A stretch of 30,944 nt of DNA from a virus: positions 1 to 30,944 of IMG/VR virus record IMGVR_UViG_3300044825_001453; one strand, written 5' to 3'. Numbering within the stretch: position 1 is the first letter of the stretch; every line of letters starts with the position of its first letter. Under the pieces are notes generated by a model. That model did not search any database and had not been told where the DNA came from. It saw only the letters and a program-made list of their open reading frames with translations. This document shows, piece by piece, positions 8,459 to 16,944 of the stretch. The translations under genes and the position numbers were made by a program.

Positions 8459-8908
8459 TTATTCTTCGCCTCTTGTTAGAAGCATTTTACCTGACAACTT
8501 ATTCATATGTTTGAATATCAACTCAACAGTATAAAAATCTAATTCACATAACAAGTCACCACCATTCTTATAGATTAAGGTAGTGTTAGCATTGACGGTA
8601 GCTGAGAACATAGGGGTAATATCATCTTCTTCTAACCCAAATGTAATCGTTACATCTTTAGGCTTACGGGATACCACTTTGAGACAAGCAGGATGCCAAC
8701 ACCAATGTTCATCTTCATGAAGACCAACATGATTTTCGTTTACTTCTTTTACTTGGTAAGTTTTACCTATATACTTATCCATATCATCATTCCACCCATA
8801 GGTTACACCTAAGTAGAAGGCAGGAACTCTATGGGTTATTTGTACAACATCACCTACTTGTAAGTTAAGTACATCAAAATGCATCTGCAATAAATCTTTC
8901 TGTGTCAT
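8459..8908 (-). CDS. Small phage protein with YIGKxY SH3-like domain, 149 aa
   Basis: Residues 15-80 contain VGDVVQITHRVP, GWNDDMDKYIGKTYQV and HPACLKVV. This resembles a small beta-barrel domain common in phage accessory proteins. The 393-aa protein next door has the same domain near its C-terminus, with the order VGDTVRVTHKVP, CWSDSMDSYIGREYKI and YSLELV. The two genes are therefore related, probably by duplication. The C-terminal half (LEEDDITPMF, FYTVELIFKHMNKLSG) also matches the end of the neighbour. Confidence 0.65.
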   Translation of the reverse strand: MTQKDLLQMHFDVLNLQVGDVVQITHRVPAFYLGVTYGWNDDMDKYIGKTYQVKEVNENHVGLHEDEHWCWHPACLKVVSRKPKDVTITFGLEEDDITPMFSATVNANTTLIYKNGGDLLCELDFYTVELIFKHMNKLSGKMLLTRGEE

Positions 8909-8960
8909 AATTTATATTGTTTTGTTAGTGAGAAAATATTAATTGTAATTATATTTAGCT

Positions 8961-10142
8961 TTATATCTTTGCAGATACATTATATTTTTTATCAACCCCT
9001 GCCAGTTCTAACAACTTAACTAACCAATACACATCATTACCTGATAACTTTGTGATTGGGCTACTAAAGTTTACAAATTCACCGCCATCTTCCATACTTC
9101 CGCTTGCCCCAGTAAAAGATAATGTGTGGGTACGGATAGTTTCTTTTCTTCTGACAAGCTCTAAGCTATAGATTGGAAACTTGTAACCATCAGTATATTC
9201 TAATTGAATACCTGTTTCAAAAATTCCTTGTATCTTGTACTCTCTGCCAATGTAACTATCCATACTATCAGACCAACAGTTTTGCCAACCATTATAGTGG
9301 TCAGGTACTTTATGGGTTACCCTAACTGTATCACCTACTTCAAAGGCAAGTAAGTCTACGGTCATTTGATATAAACCCTGAGGTGTCTTAGGATATTGCT
9401 TTGTTTCTTGTGGTGCGTCTTGTGGCATAGTTTGAGGTTTGTTTAATACTTGGTTATAAAATTGTTCATCTGTTATTAATGTGTATTCATGGTAATCATT
9501 AAGAGTCATTACACTAAATCCACGATTGTTAGGAAGGCTATGGCTTCTATTTTCTGGTATGTCACATAGTATGTAACCATCAGTAGAGTCAATTCTAAAG
9601 GCTCTCCATTCTATAAGGTCTTGCATGTTTGAAGGGTTAATCTTGATTGCCCATTTAGTTGGTAAGCTACTTACTACATCATCTACTAATCTAACGCCAG
9701 ATGCGTTAATCAAACACTCATTACGATAACTATCTCTTACCCCAAGTATAACTGTTCCGCTACTTGCCTTAGAAATAGCAAACACTACACCTTCCGTACC
9801 ATTAGACCACAATTCATTTCGTTCTTTGTTTATAAACCCTAATCGTTTAAACATAGTTGTATATGTTGAATAGGTTTCTAAATTACATTGAATAACTACA
9901 GCCATACCTCTTCGTATCCCATTGTATTCTTCAATGTATTCGTATACATCTTCAGGGTTATAGAAATAACCTCCCAATCCTGATGCATTTTTACCAAACA
10001 TATGCTTACCTTCATCATTTGTACCTTTGTAATATATAAAGTCTAAACTTTGCCTTACAAATGTTGAGTTAATAAAGTCATCGCCTATTGTTTTTTGAAA
10101 AGGCACATACTTGTTACCGATAATTAATTGTTCTGCTGTCAT
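8961..10142 (-). CDS. Fusion protein with duplicated SH3-like domain, 393 aa
   Basis: The N-terminal 240 residues form a unit with FYNPEDVYEYIEEYNGIRRG, VILGVRDSYRNECLINASG and TDEQFYNQVLNKPQTMP; no family is recognised. After a proline/glutamine linker (QTMPQDAPQETKQ), residues about 250-393 repeat the domain of the 149-aa protein downstream, including LYQMTVDLLAFEVGDTVRVT and MDSYIGREYKI. It looks like a fusion of an accessory domain with this barrel. The gene is preceded by the common leader AACCCTATAAAATAAAACCC. Confidence 0.65.
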   Translation of the reverse strand: MTAEQLIIGNKYVPFQKTIGDDFINSTFVRQSLDFIYYKGTNDEGKHMFGKNASGLGGYFYNPEDVYEYIEEYNGIRRGMAVVIQCNLETYSTYTTMFKRLGFINKERNELWSNGTEGVVFAISKASSGTVILGVRDSYRNECLINASGVRLVDDVVSSLPTKWAIKINPSNMQDLIEWRAFRIDSTDGYILCDIPENRSHSLPNNRGFSVMTLNDYHEYTLITDEQFYNQVLNKPQTMPQDAPQETKQYPKTPQGLYQMTVDLLAFEVGDTVRVTHKVPDHYNGWQNCWSDSMDSYIGREYKIQGIFETGIQLEYTDGYKFPIYSLELVRRKETIRTHTLSFTGASGSMEDGGEFVNFSSPITKLSGNDVYWLVKLLELAGVDKKYNVSAKI

Positions 10143-10161
10143 AGGGTTTTATTTTATAGGG

Positions 10162-10440
10162 TTAATTAATGTAATTAAATTCATATGATACTTCTGTTAT
10201 ATAAAATGTTGAGCCATCAAAACTTGCATTTTTTTGTATTAAATAATATATATCAACATCTAAAAACAAATCATCTGTATCTATATTGAAACAATAGTTA
10301 TAGTCTGGACTTTCATAATCTGATTTGAACAATTCAACTTTACAATCAAAGAACTCAGACAATTCATTGGCTAAAAATTCTTCATTAAATCTGCAATGCA
10401 CCAAAGAATTAAGGAATTTTATAATATCTGCTTGTGACAT
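10162..10440 (-). CDS. Small acidic protein, 92 aa
   Basis: This protein is strongly acidic, with FEFFDCKVELFKSDYE-like and FNIDTDDLFLDVDIYYL stretches and almost no basic clusters. That composition is shared by many phage DNA-mimic and anti-defence proteins, but also by ordinary small phage proteins, so no function is assigned. It has the leader TAAACCCTATAAAACAAAAC before its start. Confidence 0.62.
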   Translation of the reverse strand: MSQADIIKFLNSLVHCRFNEEFLANELSEFFDCKVELFKSDYESPDYNYCFNIDTDDLFLDVDIYYLIQKNASFDGSTFYITEVSYEFNYIN

Positions 10441-12858: not shown

Positions 12859-13023
12859 AGGTATAGGGTTTTGGTGAGAGGTAAATGGGGATAAGCGAGT
12901 CCCTTGGACATAGTTTGCCCAACAATGCTGAATTACACTTACCTTTGATTTGGGTTGCACTACATTTATTGCAACTTGTTTATGCTAATTCAGTATGGGA
13001 AACCTACAACATCTTGCATAGAA

Positions 13024-13530
13024 ATGCATAGTTGTAACTATAGGTCATTTAATACCTATTGCTCCCATAGTTCATCATATCATTGAAGTTGCTTCGTTTC
13101 TTATGCATTTATAATCATGAGTTGCTCACGAAAGGTTGCATAAGTTATGATATAACTATAGCATAAAGGAGTTGCATAAAGCGTAGTCCTTTATAGACAA
13201 GATAGTACTTGGACTTCTTTGCCTGTTTATTTTGTCATCTGTTAAACTAACAGCCAGTAGTGAATGGATTACACCCACATTTACCCTTGCTTTCGCAAGG
13301 CACAACCTCAATTTGACTACTATTGACTTCGTCAATCTTGCCCTTTTGGATAGGTAAAAACTTTGTTTTTCGGCAAGAAGTTGTGAGTTATGAAATAACT
13401 GCAAGATACCAACAGCGTTTCGCTGTTACTGAGTTGCTCAATTTTGGCACTTGACTTCGTCAAGCCTAAGGACGAAGTACTTTAGTACTTGGGTGAGTGG
13501 CGAAACCCTTGACCTACTACGAAGTAGTAG
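13024..13530. repeat. Non-coding array of short perfect hairpins
   Basis: Between 12961 and 13551 I see no convincing gene, but many short perfect inverted repeats (arm positions; loop). ATAGTT 13028-13041 (2). ATAGGT 13040-13059 (8). AGTTAT 13143-13157 (3). ATAAAGGA 13163-13194 (16). CTGTTA 13239-13253 (3). CCTTGC 13285-13300 (4). ATTGAC 13322-13336 (TTC). AAAAAC 13356-13370 (3). AGTTAT 13386-13400 (GAA). AACAGCG 13411-13427 (3). CTTGAC 13450-13464 (TTC). AAGTACT 13475-13490 (2). CTACTAC 13514-13530 (GAA). Loops of GAA or its complement TTC, closed by C-G, recur. This is dense and regular beyond what terminators or single operators would need. Confidence 0.8.
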
Positions 13531-13540
13531 TCCCCAAGTA

Positions 13541-13566
13541 AAGAAAGGTAATTACTTACCTTTCTT
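13541..13566. repeat. 11-bp perfect hairpin centred on a stop codon
   Basis: The arms AAGAAAGGTAA (13541-13551) and TTACCTTTCTT (13556-13566) are exact reverse complements around the 4-base loop TTAC. The stop codon of the 198-aa gene lies in the loop on the minus strand. There is no T-run after it on either strand, so it is not a classical intrinsic terminator. Confidence 0.85.
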
Positions 13567-14148
13567 GAAAGTTGCTTTAGCAACTTGAGCATCGTTATAC
13601 TTCTTAACGAAGTATCTTTCAGTCAAGTTGTTTATCGTACCGATTGAAAATCGGATACGAGGCATCGGTTTGCCTTGCTCATCAAACGAAACTTTAGTTT
13701 CGTAAGTGCCATCGGCTAACTCAAATCTTTGAGTTAGGTACTTTTCAGTATCTTTCGCTACTGAAAGTAGGTTTTTCGGAGTCAATTCAATTGCATTGAA
13801 TGATACCAATTTACTTGTAAATTGTTTTCCTTCGGAAGAAGATAAAATAAATTTTATCATTTCGGAGATGCTACCGATTAAATCCTTATAGGATTTAGTT
13901 ACTGCTGTTTTGCATTGACGAAACTCCTTTTTGTTAGTTGTACTAACAAGATGAGCAGGTACTGGAGTTGCTTTAGCAACTTTAGGAGTTTCAGTTGCTT
14001 TAGCAACTTCCTTCATTGATACTCTTGCTACTGAAGTAGCAATTTTAACTGAAGCACCTTTGGTGCTGTTAGTAGCAACTTTAGTTGCTTTAGAAGTTTT
14101 TACTGCTTTAGCAGTAGCGATTGGGGTGTTTTTGTTTGACATAGTCAT
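13552..14148 (-). CDS. Unknown 198-aa basic protein encoded by hairpin-packed DNA
   Basis: I do not recognise the protein. Residues 1-75 are low-complexity and rich in Ala, Lys, Thr and Val (SKATKVATNSTKGASVKIAT, with VAKAT repeated), like a disordered histone-H1-type tail. Residues 75-198 look folded: KKEFRQCKTAVTKSYKDLIG, EMIKFILSSSEGKQF, LLSVAKDTEKYLTQRFELAD and PMPRIRFSIGTINNLTERYF. It ends VAKATFKKGK. DNA or RNA binding is plausible from the charge. The coding DNA is packed with short perfect inverted repeats, listed separately. The start may be 14148 or the second ATG at 14142. It is the first leftward gene after the divergent control region. Confidence 0.6.
   Translation of the reverse strand: MTMSNKNTPIATAKAVKTSKATKVATNSTKGASVKIATSVARVSMKEVAKATETPKVAKATPVPAHLVSTTNKKEFRQCKTAVTKSYKDLIGSISEMIKFILSSSEGKQFTSKLVSFNAIELTPKNLLSVAKDTEKYLTQRFELADGTYETKVSFDEQGKPMPRIRFSIGTINNLTERYFVKKYNDAQVAKATFKKGK
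13569..14116. repeat. Array of about 18 short perfect inverted repeats inside the 198-aa gene
   Basis: Perfect arms (span; stem length) are: 13569-13586 (7), 13597-13615 (7), 13640-13654 (6, extended by TCGTA/TACGA with one bulge), 13686-13703 (8), 13716-13737 (10), 13743-13766 (8), 13785-13801 (7), 13807-13824 (8), 13827-13837 (4), 13841-13858 (8), 13879-13897 (8), 13931-13949 (8), 13966-13981 (6), 13993-14008 (6), 14025-14042 (8), 14053-14067 (6), 14074-14089 (7) and 14101-14116 (6). Loops are mostly 2-4 bases. The element AGTTGCTTTAGCAACT occurs three times. No other gene in the window shows this by eye. Confidence 0.85.
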
Positions 14149-14274
14149 TTGGATTTTGAGTGAGAAAAATGATTAATTTCACTAACCGACCAACAATGCT
14201 GAAAACCAATACCACATTGAGTTTGAGGCAAATTTTACCCCAAAAAAAACCCACTATAAAGCAAAGGTCGGCGA

Positions 14275-14468
14275 TATACCATAGGTATAAAGAAGTTTTC
14301 GTTACCATAGGAAAACCTACGGTTTCGCGTAAGTAACTGATATACAAGCAAGTAGGTATGTGTCCCTACTCACCAACAAGCGTAAAAGCTTATCCCATAC
14401 CTTAACTTTCAGTTAAAAAGGGATATAATAGGGACTAAATAGGGAGAACCTAACTATAAAATAGTTAG
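14275..14468. repeat. Further short hairpins upstream of the 198-aa gene
   Basis: Perfect arms continue into the non-coding control region: TATACC 14275-14289 (loop ATA), GTTTTC 14295-14316 (loop 10), AGTAGG 14351-14370 (loop 8, itself inside GGTATG 14355 with CATACC 14396-14401 overlapping), TTAACT 14402-14416 (loop TTC) and CTAACTAT 14450-14468 (loop AAA). They lie in what would be the leader of the leftward gene. Confidence 0.7.
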
Positions 14469-14687
14469 TGACCATGGTTTGATAGTAAAAAAATTTTCAA
14501 TTTTTCATACCCACCCCTGTATGTGCTCGGGTTCGCCCCTGCGTGTGTGTGTGCGTTTTGTGTTATAGTACCCCACCCAATATATCAATCCCTCCTGTTT
14601 CAAATTACCCCTATAATTTAACCTCTCTTATTATATAAGAAAGGAGATAATATAAGTACTTGGTACTCAATATAGCAATTTTCCAAA
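14469..14687. other. Non-coding divergent control region
   Basis: No gene is seen. The stretch holds an A/T tract (14488-14504), a short GC-richer patch with a GT run (GCGTGTGTGTGTGCG near 14541-14555), a 6-bp hairpin TCTTAT/ATAAGA (14626-14640) and AGTAC/GTACT (14655-14667). A replication origin or promoters for the leftward block could be here, but I cannot point to a leftward TAnnTTTG box. Confidence 0.5.
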
Positions 14688-14718
14688 TTAGTCAAAATTT
14701 TGACTAAAATGGTCAAAA
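14688..14718. promoter_or_regulatory. 20-bp perfect palindrome plus extra half-site (operator)
   Basis: TTAGTCAAAATTTTGACTAA (14688-14707) is a perfect 20-bp palindrome made of two GTCAAAA half-sites. A third half-site, GTCAAAA, follows at 14712-14718. The palindrome covers the TTTG (-33) element of the promoter for the winged-helix gene, so a bound dimer would block polymerase. The obvious candidate ligand is that winged-helix protein itself. Confidence 0.7.
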
Positions 14719-14733
14719 AGTATTGTATCTTTG
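14699..14733 (+). promoter_or_regulatory. Bacteroidota-type promoter of the winged-helix gene
   Basis: TTTG (14699-14702) is followed after 23 bases by TATCTTTG (14726-14733), matching the Bacteroidota primary promoter. The start codon at 14738 is only four bases after the box, so the transcript would be leaderless or nearly so. Confidence 0.65.
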
Positions 14734-14737
14734 TACA

Positions 14738-15139
14738 ATGGAAAAGAAAGGTATTACACGGGTTGCCGTAAAAGGTAAAGAAAGAGTTGTCGTAGATAAC
14801 TCCACAGGTGAGGTGTTAGAGTTAAGTGATGTTGCCGAAGTTAAGAAGGTTGATAGCTTACCCTTTATAAAGGTATATACTGAGGGTATAATGGCTCTTA
14901 TGGGTTTGAATACTTCTGGGTTAAAAGTATGGGGTTATATAGCACTTAACCTTAGAAAGCATCAGGAACGATTCTATGTGCCAATAGAGCTCTGTAGAGA
15001 AGCAATAGGGTATAAGAGTAACCGTGATGTATATAAGGGCTTAAATGAACTCCTACGGGCTAATATGGTTATTGACAATGGTGATGGTAGTTATAGTATC
15101 AACCCTAATATGTTTTATAATGGTAAGCGAATTAAGTAG
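14738..15139 (+). CDS. RepL-like winged-helix protein, 133 aa
   Basis: After a basic N-terminus (MEKKGITRVAVKGKERVVVD), residues 45-133 follow the RepL / plasmid-replication winged helix: LPFIKVYTEGIMALMGLNTS, SGLKVWGYIALNLRK, IELCREAIGYKSNRDVYKGL, NELLRANMVI and SYSINPNMFYNGKRI. The INPNMFYNG wing is characteristic. Such proteins start plasmid or phage replication or regulate transcription by binding repeats near their own gene. The hairpin-rich region and palindrome directly upstream fit either role. I use the ATG at 14738; the open frame from 14723 begins with TTG inside the promoter box. Confidence 0.7.
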   Translation: MEKKGITRVAVKGKERVVVDNSTGEVLELSDVAEVKKVDSLPFIKVYTEGIMALMGLNTSGLKVWGYIALNLRKHQERFYVPIELCREAIGYKSNRDVYKGLNELLRANMVIDNGDGSYSINPNMFYNGKRIK

Positions 15140-15171: not shown

Positions 15172-16944
15172 ATGGCAGGTAATAATTTTACAAACCAATG
15201 GAACAACCAAGCGTTACAAGCTAAAAGAGTAGAAGATGTAATAGGTTGGGACTATAATACTCAAACACAACAAATTATAGCAACAGATGTAACTGTTCCT
15301 TTTAATGTTAATTGGAATACTCCAGAATATGGCAACCAATTTTGTGGTGGCATTAGAATTGAAGAAACAAATGGTAATGAATTTAAGCTTTTAAAAGTAA
15401 TTTTAGTTGGTGCTTCAAGTCCTATTGAATTTAAAGTTAAAACAGGAGACTATTTAGATGTGCAAGCTACTTCAATATTAACATCAGAAGGGTTTAAAGG
15501 AATTACTGTGTATATGGGTCAAGCAAGCGAACAACCGTTTGAACCATTCTACAATAACTTATTCCAACCTTATTATAATTTTGATGTAGTTGCTGATTGG
15601 AGAGCAATAACTGGTGCTACTCCTTTTACTCAATCAGATTTTGAAGGCTGGTTAACTTCAAATTTAAATTTTAGTATAACTTCTATTGGTAATTTCATAT
15701 ATGAAGCTGTTATTGATGACCCTTTAAATGGTGTTCATATAGGAAGAGTTAAATGTAGATTGCAAGTAGATTGTCAAGGTAATAAATGGAGTTTAAATAC
15801 TTATTTTTTTGAAATTAACGGATTAGGAGATTTTACAAAATGTAATACTATTGAAATAAATAATAATGATCAAATATGGAATTACCCTCAAATAAATGTT
15901 TTTTTACAAGGGTTAAAGGAAATTAATTTTAAATACTATTCTCAATTAAATAGTAAACTTGAAAAATTAGACATTGCTAAAAATGATTATCTAGAAAATA
16001 TAGATTTGAGTTTTTTACAATTTTGTACTTATGGAGATTTTAAAGATTTCTTTATAGGTAATACTTCATTGGTTAATCAGTTTTCAAATTTTGTTTTGAT
16101 GCCAGATTCAACTATAAATTTTGGAATGTCTGAAATGTATGGTTTTAGAAGATTTGAATATGATTTAACTAATACTAATTTAAATACATTTGGTTTTACT
16201 GATAGTTCAAATTTTACTCCTGATGGAGCGCAAAGATTAGGTTTAGAATATATCAATACATCATTACTTCCTGACACAATACAGTATTTGTATTTATCTA
16301 ATAATAATTTAAATGTAATGACTGCTGGATATACTAAGTTTCCAGCAAATTTAATAGATTTGCAATTAAATCTTAATGGAATGATTAATTTTAACCCAGA
16401 ATGTCAATTGCCAGCTCCATTACAAAGCTTACAACTTTCAGATAATTTGTTGTACGAGTTTGATTTAAATTATCCATTGCCAACTGGTTTAGGTAATATA
16501 TACTTAGGTAATAATTTGATTCAATCATTTAATACCACATGTAATCCAGGTTTGTTCCAATTAGACTTAATTAACAACCAATTAACAAAAGCTAACTTTT
16601 TTAATTTATTAAACCCTTCTTTATATATTTTAAATTTAAGTTTTAATGCATTTAGTGAGTTTGTAGTTAATGCTCCATTGCCTGCAAATTTGAATGTATT
16701 ATATTTAAATAACAACAACATGTCAAGATGTTTGTTAAAAGGAACTACTGGACCAGTAAATATATTTTTATACGCTAATAATATGAGTGTAGCTAGCTGG
16801 ACAGAAATGAATACTTGGGCTACTGGTATAGCAGGTTCAGGACCTGGAAGCAAATTTCTTTATGCTTATGCTAATCCTGGTTCAATATCAGCTTCACCAA
16901 CAAATGCAACATTAATTTCTAAAGGATATAACGTATTCCCATAA
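15172..16944 (+). CDS. Leucine-rich-repeat protein, candidate tail/receptor-binding protein
   Basis: This 590-aa protein has an N-terminal beta-rich part (residues 1-230). A run of leucine-rich repeats follows at about 365-530, for example LPDTIQYLYLSNNNLNVM, PANLIDLQLNLNGMINF, PAPLQSLQLSDNLLYEF, PTGLGNIYLGNNLIQSF, LYILNLSFNAFSEFVV and LPANLNVLYLNNNN. The repeat is about 23 residues with the LxxLxLxxNxL core; earlier weak repeats begin near 245. It ends in a Gly/Ser/Ala-rich tail. It has no signal peptide. It is followed by two small helical proteins and the lysis cassette, a position where tail-fibre or receptor-binding genes are common. Binding a surface carbohydrate or protein is inferred from the LRR fold. 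Confidence 0.68.
   Translation: MAGNNFTNQWNNQALQAKRVEDVIGWDYNTQTQQIIATDVTVPFNVNWNTPEYGNQFCGGIRIEETNGNEFKLLKVILVGASSPIEFKVKTGDYLDVQATSILTSEGFKGITVYMGQASEQPFEPFYNNLFQPYYNFDVVADWRAITGATPFTQSDFEGWLTSNLNFSITSIGNFIYEAVIDDPLNGVHIGRVKCRLQVDCQGNKWSLNTYFFEINGLGDFTKCNTIEINNNDQIWNYPQINVFLQGLKEINFKYYSQLNSKLEKLDIAKNDYLENIDLSFLQFCTYGDFKDFFIGNTSLVNQFSNFVLMPDSTINFGMSEMYGFRRFEYDLTNTNLNTFGFTDSSNFTPDGAQRLGLEYINTSLLPDTIQYLYLSNNNLNVMTAGYTKFPANLIDLQLNLNGMINFNPECQLPAPLQSLQLSDNLLYEFDLNYPLPTGLGNIYLGNNLIQSFNTTCNPGLFQLDLINNQLTKANFFNLLNPSLYILNLSFNAFSEFVVNAPLPANLNVLYLNNNNMSRCLLKGTTGPVNIFLYANNMSVASWTEMNTWATGIAGSGPGSKFLYAYANPGSISASPTNATLISKGYNVFP

Follow-up and report, generated by a model that had tools for sequence, protein, structure and literature searches.

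A locus-specific array of short perfect hairpins overlies a protein gene beside a RepL-type initiator gene in a phage of Bacteroidota affinity

Why should a phage carry a whole protein gene that is built from short perfect hairpins? This question is raised by a leftward gene of 198 codons in a virus record of 30,944 bases, analysed over its full length and hereafter called the window, in which the open reading frames run leftward up to ~14.1 kb and rightward from ~14.7 kb. A preliminary description had counted about 18 perfect inverted repeats in this gene, mostly 6-10 bp long in the stem and 2-4 nt in the loop. With a count limited to non-overlapping perfect hairpins (stem 6 bp or more, loop 2-8 nt), we found 17, which cover 304 of the 597 bases of the gene and of which 15 have stems of 7 bp or longer; the earlier count and the stem and loop sizes given with it were right. 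However, the feature is not limited to the gene, as had been described, but runs on at both sides, with 12 hairpins against 1.1 expected in the noncoding DNA at 12961-13551, and eight against 1.4 expected at 14149-14722 on the other flank. The array comprises ~30 short perfect hairpins over ~1.3 kb beside a replication-initiator gene, with one whole protein gene included. Its parts and immediate surroundings are as follows.

12961-13551, no strand: noncoding continuation of the array downstream of the gene, stems mostly 6-7 bp
13239-14116, no strand: dense array core of perfect hairpins with centres ~33 bases apart, extending over noncoding DNA and, past the stop codon, the gene itself
13285-13300: core hairpin CCTTGC-TTTC-GCAAGG
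13514-13530: core hairpin CTACTAC-GAA-GTAGTAG
13541-13566, no strand: longest stem of the array, 11 bp with a 4-nt loop, straddling the stop codon
13552-14148, minus strand: hairpin-built 198-aa gene, the first of the leftward block, family not matched
13569-13586: core hairpin AAGTTGCT-TT-AGCAACTT
13686-13703: core hairpin ACGAAACT-TT-AGTTTCGT
14117-14274, no strand: gap without hairpins, where the hairpin gene has its 5' leader and start codon
14275-14640, no strand: divergent intergenic region with hairpins of this class at lower density, at 14275, 14402, 14450, 14489 and 14626
14688-14707, no strand: perfect 20-bp palindrome TTAGTCAAAATTTTGACTAA, just upstream of the repL-like gene
14723-15139, plus strand: replication-initiator-like protein of the RepL family (PF05732), encoded divergently next to the array (E 5.8e-9, 36 bits against a cut-off of 20.3)

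The 20-bp palindrome appears operator-like and stands outside the hairpin class, having no loop.

Permutation of synonymous codons within the 198-aa gene, a check that the preliminary description had proposed, gave 3.7±1.6 hairpins with a maximum of 10 (n=2000), and a control on genome codon usage gave 3.7 with a maximum of 11 (n=300), compared to the 17 observed. Chance and codon bias are thus excluded. The 17 other genes examined in the window have 0-6 hairpins each, near their own shuffles, in agreement with the earlier remark that neighbouring genes lack such hairpins. Outside the locus the rest of the window shows no enrichment (hairpins with loops of 2-3 nt: 22 found, 17.6 expected). A mobile palindromic repeat is excluded by the differing stem sequences, and clusters of terminators or operators were rejected as well, with three terminator-like sites against 1.9 expected; no tRNA was found. 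A spacing periodicity near 30.5 nt in the array is weak.

The hairpins form one narrow geometric class, with stems of 6-8 bp and inner loops mostly of 2-3 nt, despite differing in sequence. Among window-array stems that enclose 2 or 3 nt, those of 4 bp (12 against 10.3 expected) and 5 bp (five against 2.9) are at chance, as are stems of 2-5 bp in general, whereas 6 bp (12 against 0.7), 7 bp (nine against 0.2) and 8 bp (eight against 0.1) are in large excess; beyond that there is none of 9 bp and one of 10 bp. Pairing past the stem ends is at chance level, and the stems in the noncoding parts are not longer than those in the gene. Three-nucleotide loops, on stems of 6-8 bp, occur in 18 of the 33 window hairpins whose loops are no longer than 5 nt, while loops of 0, 1 and at least 5 nt are near chance and 4-nt loops at most slightly raised. 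Pairing in the stems is strictly Watson-Crick, and variants with a G·U or a single mismatch are almost absent: the window core holds eight perfect 8-pair arms and none with a single internal mismatch or G·U. A folding threshold of about 6 bp would explain why stems of 4-5 bp and stems with one mismatch are both missing. The flanks share no consensus and the stems are unrelated, GTTGCTTTAGCAAC and TTGACTTCGTCAA being the only hairpins that recur.

Analysis of the loops revealed further regularities. The closing pair of triloops is 5'-pyrimidine..purine in 26 of 29 cases, compared to 43% in background hairpins (P 2e-7), and loops of 2 nt are closed by T..A in 16 of 19 cases, compared to 40% (P 1e-4). 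GAA/TTC triloops make up 8 of 29 against a background of 2.8% (P 9e-7), with a strand split of 4:4 over the two phages that carry the array, and GNA/TNC triloops 11 of 29 against 14%. In DNA hairpins, two-base loops closed by T..A and closing pairs of the C/T-G/A kind are favourable, according to older NMR work. To judge from the sequence, these loop features are those of hairpins that really fold.

The 198-aa protein has a basic N-terminal tail rich in Ala, Lys, Thr and Val, and a better conserved C-terminal part. Searches of Pfam, PHROG and PDB gave no relative at a usable E-value, and structure prediction yielded no usable model (mean pLDDT 47). The protein admits 30 synonymous 7-bp hairpin sites, compared to 13±2.9 for shuffled amino-acid order, and its C-terminal part admits 21, compared to 9.0±3.3. 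Possible sites are realised at 43%, against about 0-12% in control genes. The protein sequence itself is thus skewed towards hairpins. In the window gene no non-overlapping hairpin site is left unused, a saturation that is partly expected because hairpins already occupy half of the gene.

The terminase, portal and SU10-type capsid proteins place the window, by sequence comparison, among the phages of Bacteroidota. Among named phages, the closest are the elemo phages of Flavobacterium, phages of Cellulophaga and the Maribacter phage Panino (~24-30% identity). Further IMG/VR contigs carry terminases that are 77-100% identical, but the region of the hairpin gene is covered by one relative alone, L014 (IMGVR_UViG_3300021952_000031), which is a separate metagenome contig. 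Elsewhere in the window, the second half of the gene at 21342-21944 matches GroES/Cpn10 (PF00166, 6.5e-6), and this gene shortly precedes the terminase, the same placement as in elemo, phi38:1 and Panino. The gene at 892-1779 encodes a sigma-factor-like phage protein (phrog_351, 6e-21), for which Pfam Sigma70_r2 scores slightly below its cut-off. A leucine-rich-repeat-like protein of 590 aa is encoded at 15172-16944, where the genes of L014 are different and look unrelated.

At the same locus L014 encodes a homologue of the 198-aa protein (8774-9391; ~34% identity, BLASTP E 3e-21), which is the most divergent of the 12 proteins compared between the two phages (34% against 45-94%). Homologues had been suggested earlier as a further check, and this one also has an excess of hairpins: 10 in all, of which nine reach a stem of 7 bp or more, compared to 1.4 such hairpins in shuffles (maximum five, n=1000). 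Neither of the two outcomes that the preliminary description would have counted against the feature was thus observed. The L014 flanks are enriched as well, with eight and seven hairpins against 1.9 and 1.5 expected, and stems with 2-3 nt loops again cluster at 6 bp (four), 7 bp (10) and 8 bp (two); five to nine possible sites in its gene are left unused. The stem sequences largely differ from those of the window. An assembly artefact is unlikely, as another metagenome contig shows the excess with stems of its own. Window hairpin pairs are still complementary in L014 in 46% of cases, compared to 31% for slid partners, a comparison of two sequences in which the helices are mostly displaced; individual hairpin positions thus seem weakly conserved. 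The array persists and its members turn over, as L014 keeps an array with mostly different stems and a diverged protein. That a distant relative keeps the array in different letters suggests that folding itself matters. By contrast to the diverged gene, the block TGAAAACCAATACCACATTGAGTTTG at 14200-14225 in its 5' leader (minus strand CAAACTCAATG..GTATTGGTTTTCA) has hardly changed between the window and L014 and is possibly a promoter or operator. An identical 14-base element (minus strand TTCAGCATTGTTGG) lies at 12919-12932 and 14190-14203, ahead of two neighbouring leftward gene starts, as a putative shared leader or promoter element.

Scans of viral contigs by protein, alignment, neighbouring genes and pattern, together with a genome scan, gave L014 as the only further homologue, so that two array-bearing phages were found, the window phage and L014. 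No array occurs in the stretches examined of elemo, phi38:1, Panino and MW202828, and a profile search of the stretches examined from these four named relatives found neither RepL nor the hairpin protein. The array is real, conserved as a property and confined to one locus.

The RepL-like gene may truly start at the ATG at 14738. L014 also has a RepL-family gene (10007-10417; PF05732, 1.6e-7), and the closest plasmid match of the window protein is on a 2.7-kb Elizabethkingia plasmid. A plasmid-type RepL initiator is thus present in a tailed-phage genome. The pSN2 family of plasmids, defined by RepL and classed as rolling-circle, frequently carries a small basic open reading frame (PMC5703833); a RepL-family initiator adjoins the array here too, and single-stranded intermediates of such replicons, which have dso/sso hairpins (PMC5703833), would fold. 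However, no such array was present in the RepL loci examined, which comprised eight RepL plasmid stretches and 11 other RepL phage contigs. RepL therefore does not need an array, and the array as a standard feature of RepL replicons is excluded; the link between the two is suggestive, not general. Moreover, the array is densest over the 198-aa gene, not beside repL. Some Bacteroidota RepL plasmids show a milder hairpin excess, made up of terminators and iterated dyads before repL. In two Hymenobacter RepL plasmids (L061, 2428-2570; L071, 2720-2860) the dyad atttaccaNNNtggtaaat is repeated upstream of repL, probably as a RepL binding site.

We tentatively propose, with somewhat less than even confidence, that selection maintains the array as a DNA-folding element in a replication or control region linked to RepL, where it would be active in single-stranded or supercoiled DNA. 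Either a single-stranded state, such as might arise when the RepL-like protein drives initiation or displaces a strand, or strong negative supercoiling would let the stretch fold into a string of ~30 mini-hairpins with stems of 6-8 bp and loops of 3-4 nt. Selection would act on the folding ability of each piece rather than on its sequence or exact place, so that hairpins turn over and the array stays. The 198-aa gene inside the array would have adapted its codons, and even its amino acids, to it. Most likely, the hairpins would serve as structure-specific, sequence-independent landing sites for a DNA-binding protein; as a guess, the reader could be the basic protein encoded in the array, the host SSB, a primase or an RNA polymerase. 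The single-stranded DNA origin raised in the preliminary description fits the adjoining RepL initiator, which falls short of proving it. That DNA is the form that matters, that it is selected, and that it has a role in replication or its control is what we infer.

The preliminary description had left two options, a selected structure or a mutational process such as template switching; our data partly support this and sharpen the picture, the choice between the two being not fully decided. In the mutational version, polymerase template switching at hairpins and quasipalindrome correction would, without any function, perfect imperfect inverted repeats where DNA is often single-stranded or replication stalls, an explanation that we regard as somewhat unlikely. 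It would account for the all-or-none perfection, with no excess of imperfect stems, for a loop chemistry of stable hairpins as expected of folding intermediates, and for the distorted amino-acid sequence and fast divergence of the hairpin protein. For nematomorph mitochondria, Mikhailov and co-workers read all-or-none perfection as indicating that repeats are actively converted (PMC6649704), and template switching can rewrite codons (PMC8604942). However, a conversion process should extend stems, and here they stop near 8 bp with no residual pairing, being shorter in the noncoding parts than in the gene. These sharp lower and upper limits, noncoding DNA included, favour selection over run-away conversion. 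Furthermore, the rest of the genome lacks enrichment, arms and spacers evolve alike (54% against 51% identity), and the array is kept at one locus in two diverged phages.

Selection might instead act on RNA, with the leftward transcript (the gene and a ~590-nt trailer) forming a hairpin chain that protects the message, slows translation, or serves as a decoy or binding RNA. Computed on 120-nt pieces, predicted RNA folding exceeds that of synonymous shuffles, with z-scores of -6.8 for the sense and -5.5 for the antisense strand, and -5.3 for the L014 sense strand, so that sense folding is strong and slightly above antisense. The array also coincides with the first leftward gene plus its trailer, leaves the start codon free, and has A-rich sense-strand loops inside the gene. 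Nevertheless, G·U pairs are essentially absent although RNA stems tolerate them; GAA and TTC triloops are balanced between the strands, noncoding parts included; loops of 4-8 nt, which suit RNA well, are hardly enriched; hairpins are present in the divergent intergenic DNA too; and Rfam models at gathering thresholds matched neither the window nor L014. Strict Watson-Crick stems and equal loop preferences on both strands indirectly favour DNA over RNA structure, and an array across coding and noncoding DNA is not solely a property of the translation of one mRNA. Owing to this span, pairing, loop symmetry and the stem limits, the transcript protection or regulated translation considered earlier is less probable than an element that works as single-stranded or supercoiled DNA, and we judge selected RNA structure distinctly unlikely. 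Hairpin promoters of the N4 kind, extruded under supercoiling and read by a phage RNA polymerase, are highly improbable. N4 early promoters form a hairpin with a 3-base loop containing a sheared G:A, extruded at physiological supercoiling (PMC4496689). The array shares this structural class, a short DNA hairpin with a stem of 5-7 bp and a 3-nt loop, in that its stems measure 6-8 bp and many of its loops 3 nt, GNA/TNC triloops of the G:A type among them. But in N4 there are three early promoters, whose stem and loop bases are conserved (PMC4496689), compared to ~30 sites in one gene region here with unrelated stems and no common flank, and the large late proteins (1315 and 1188 aa) in the incomplete genome of the close relative L032 contain no RNA polymerase domain.

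Comparison with other systems revealed partial likenesses. Like the array, the coding palindromes of nematomorph mitochondria consist of many perfect, all-or-none inverted repeats in coding genes, at places partly shared between relatives (PMC6649704), and their origin is unexplained (PMC6649704). They differ greatly in size: nematomorph stems, counted from 15 bp, average 43 bp and reach 142 bp, with a mean arm distance of 37 bp, in many genes (PMC6649704), whereas the present array has short hairpins of fixed geometry (arms of 6-11 bp, loops of 2-5 nt) at a single phage locus. Rickettsia palindromic and REP-type elements also place palindromes inside coding DNA (PMC6649704), but as copies of one mobile sequence, while nearly every hairpin here has its own. 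At quasipalindrome template-switch hotspots imperfect hairpins are made perfect (PMC7202029, PMC8604942), but these are isolated sites, and no array with bounded stem and loop lengths is described there. As the preliminary description had supposed, the array is unlike any described system found in the open literature searched. It could represent an undescribed kind of element, namely an array of DNA mini-hairpins with fixed geometry but free sequence, in which folding alone is selected. Such an element would overlie a gene whose protein sequence it has reshaped and would act in replication control with the basic protein encoded inside; this fuller claim is possible but more doubtful.

If the array is mutational in origin, it would reveal a sharply bounded, locus-specific palindrome-making process that is open to study in a phage. 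If it is selected, the same DNA would code at once for a protein and for modules that fold as single strands and are defined by their geometry, not by their sequence. Protein sequence would then be dictated by structure to an extreme degree, and a reader of DNA hairpins in phages would be implied.
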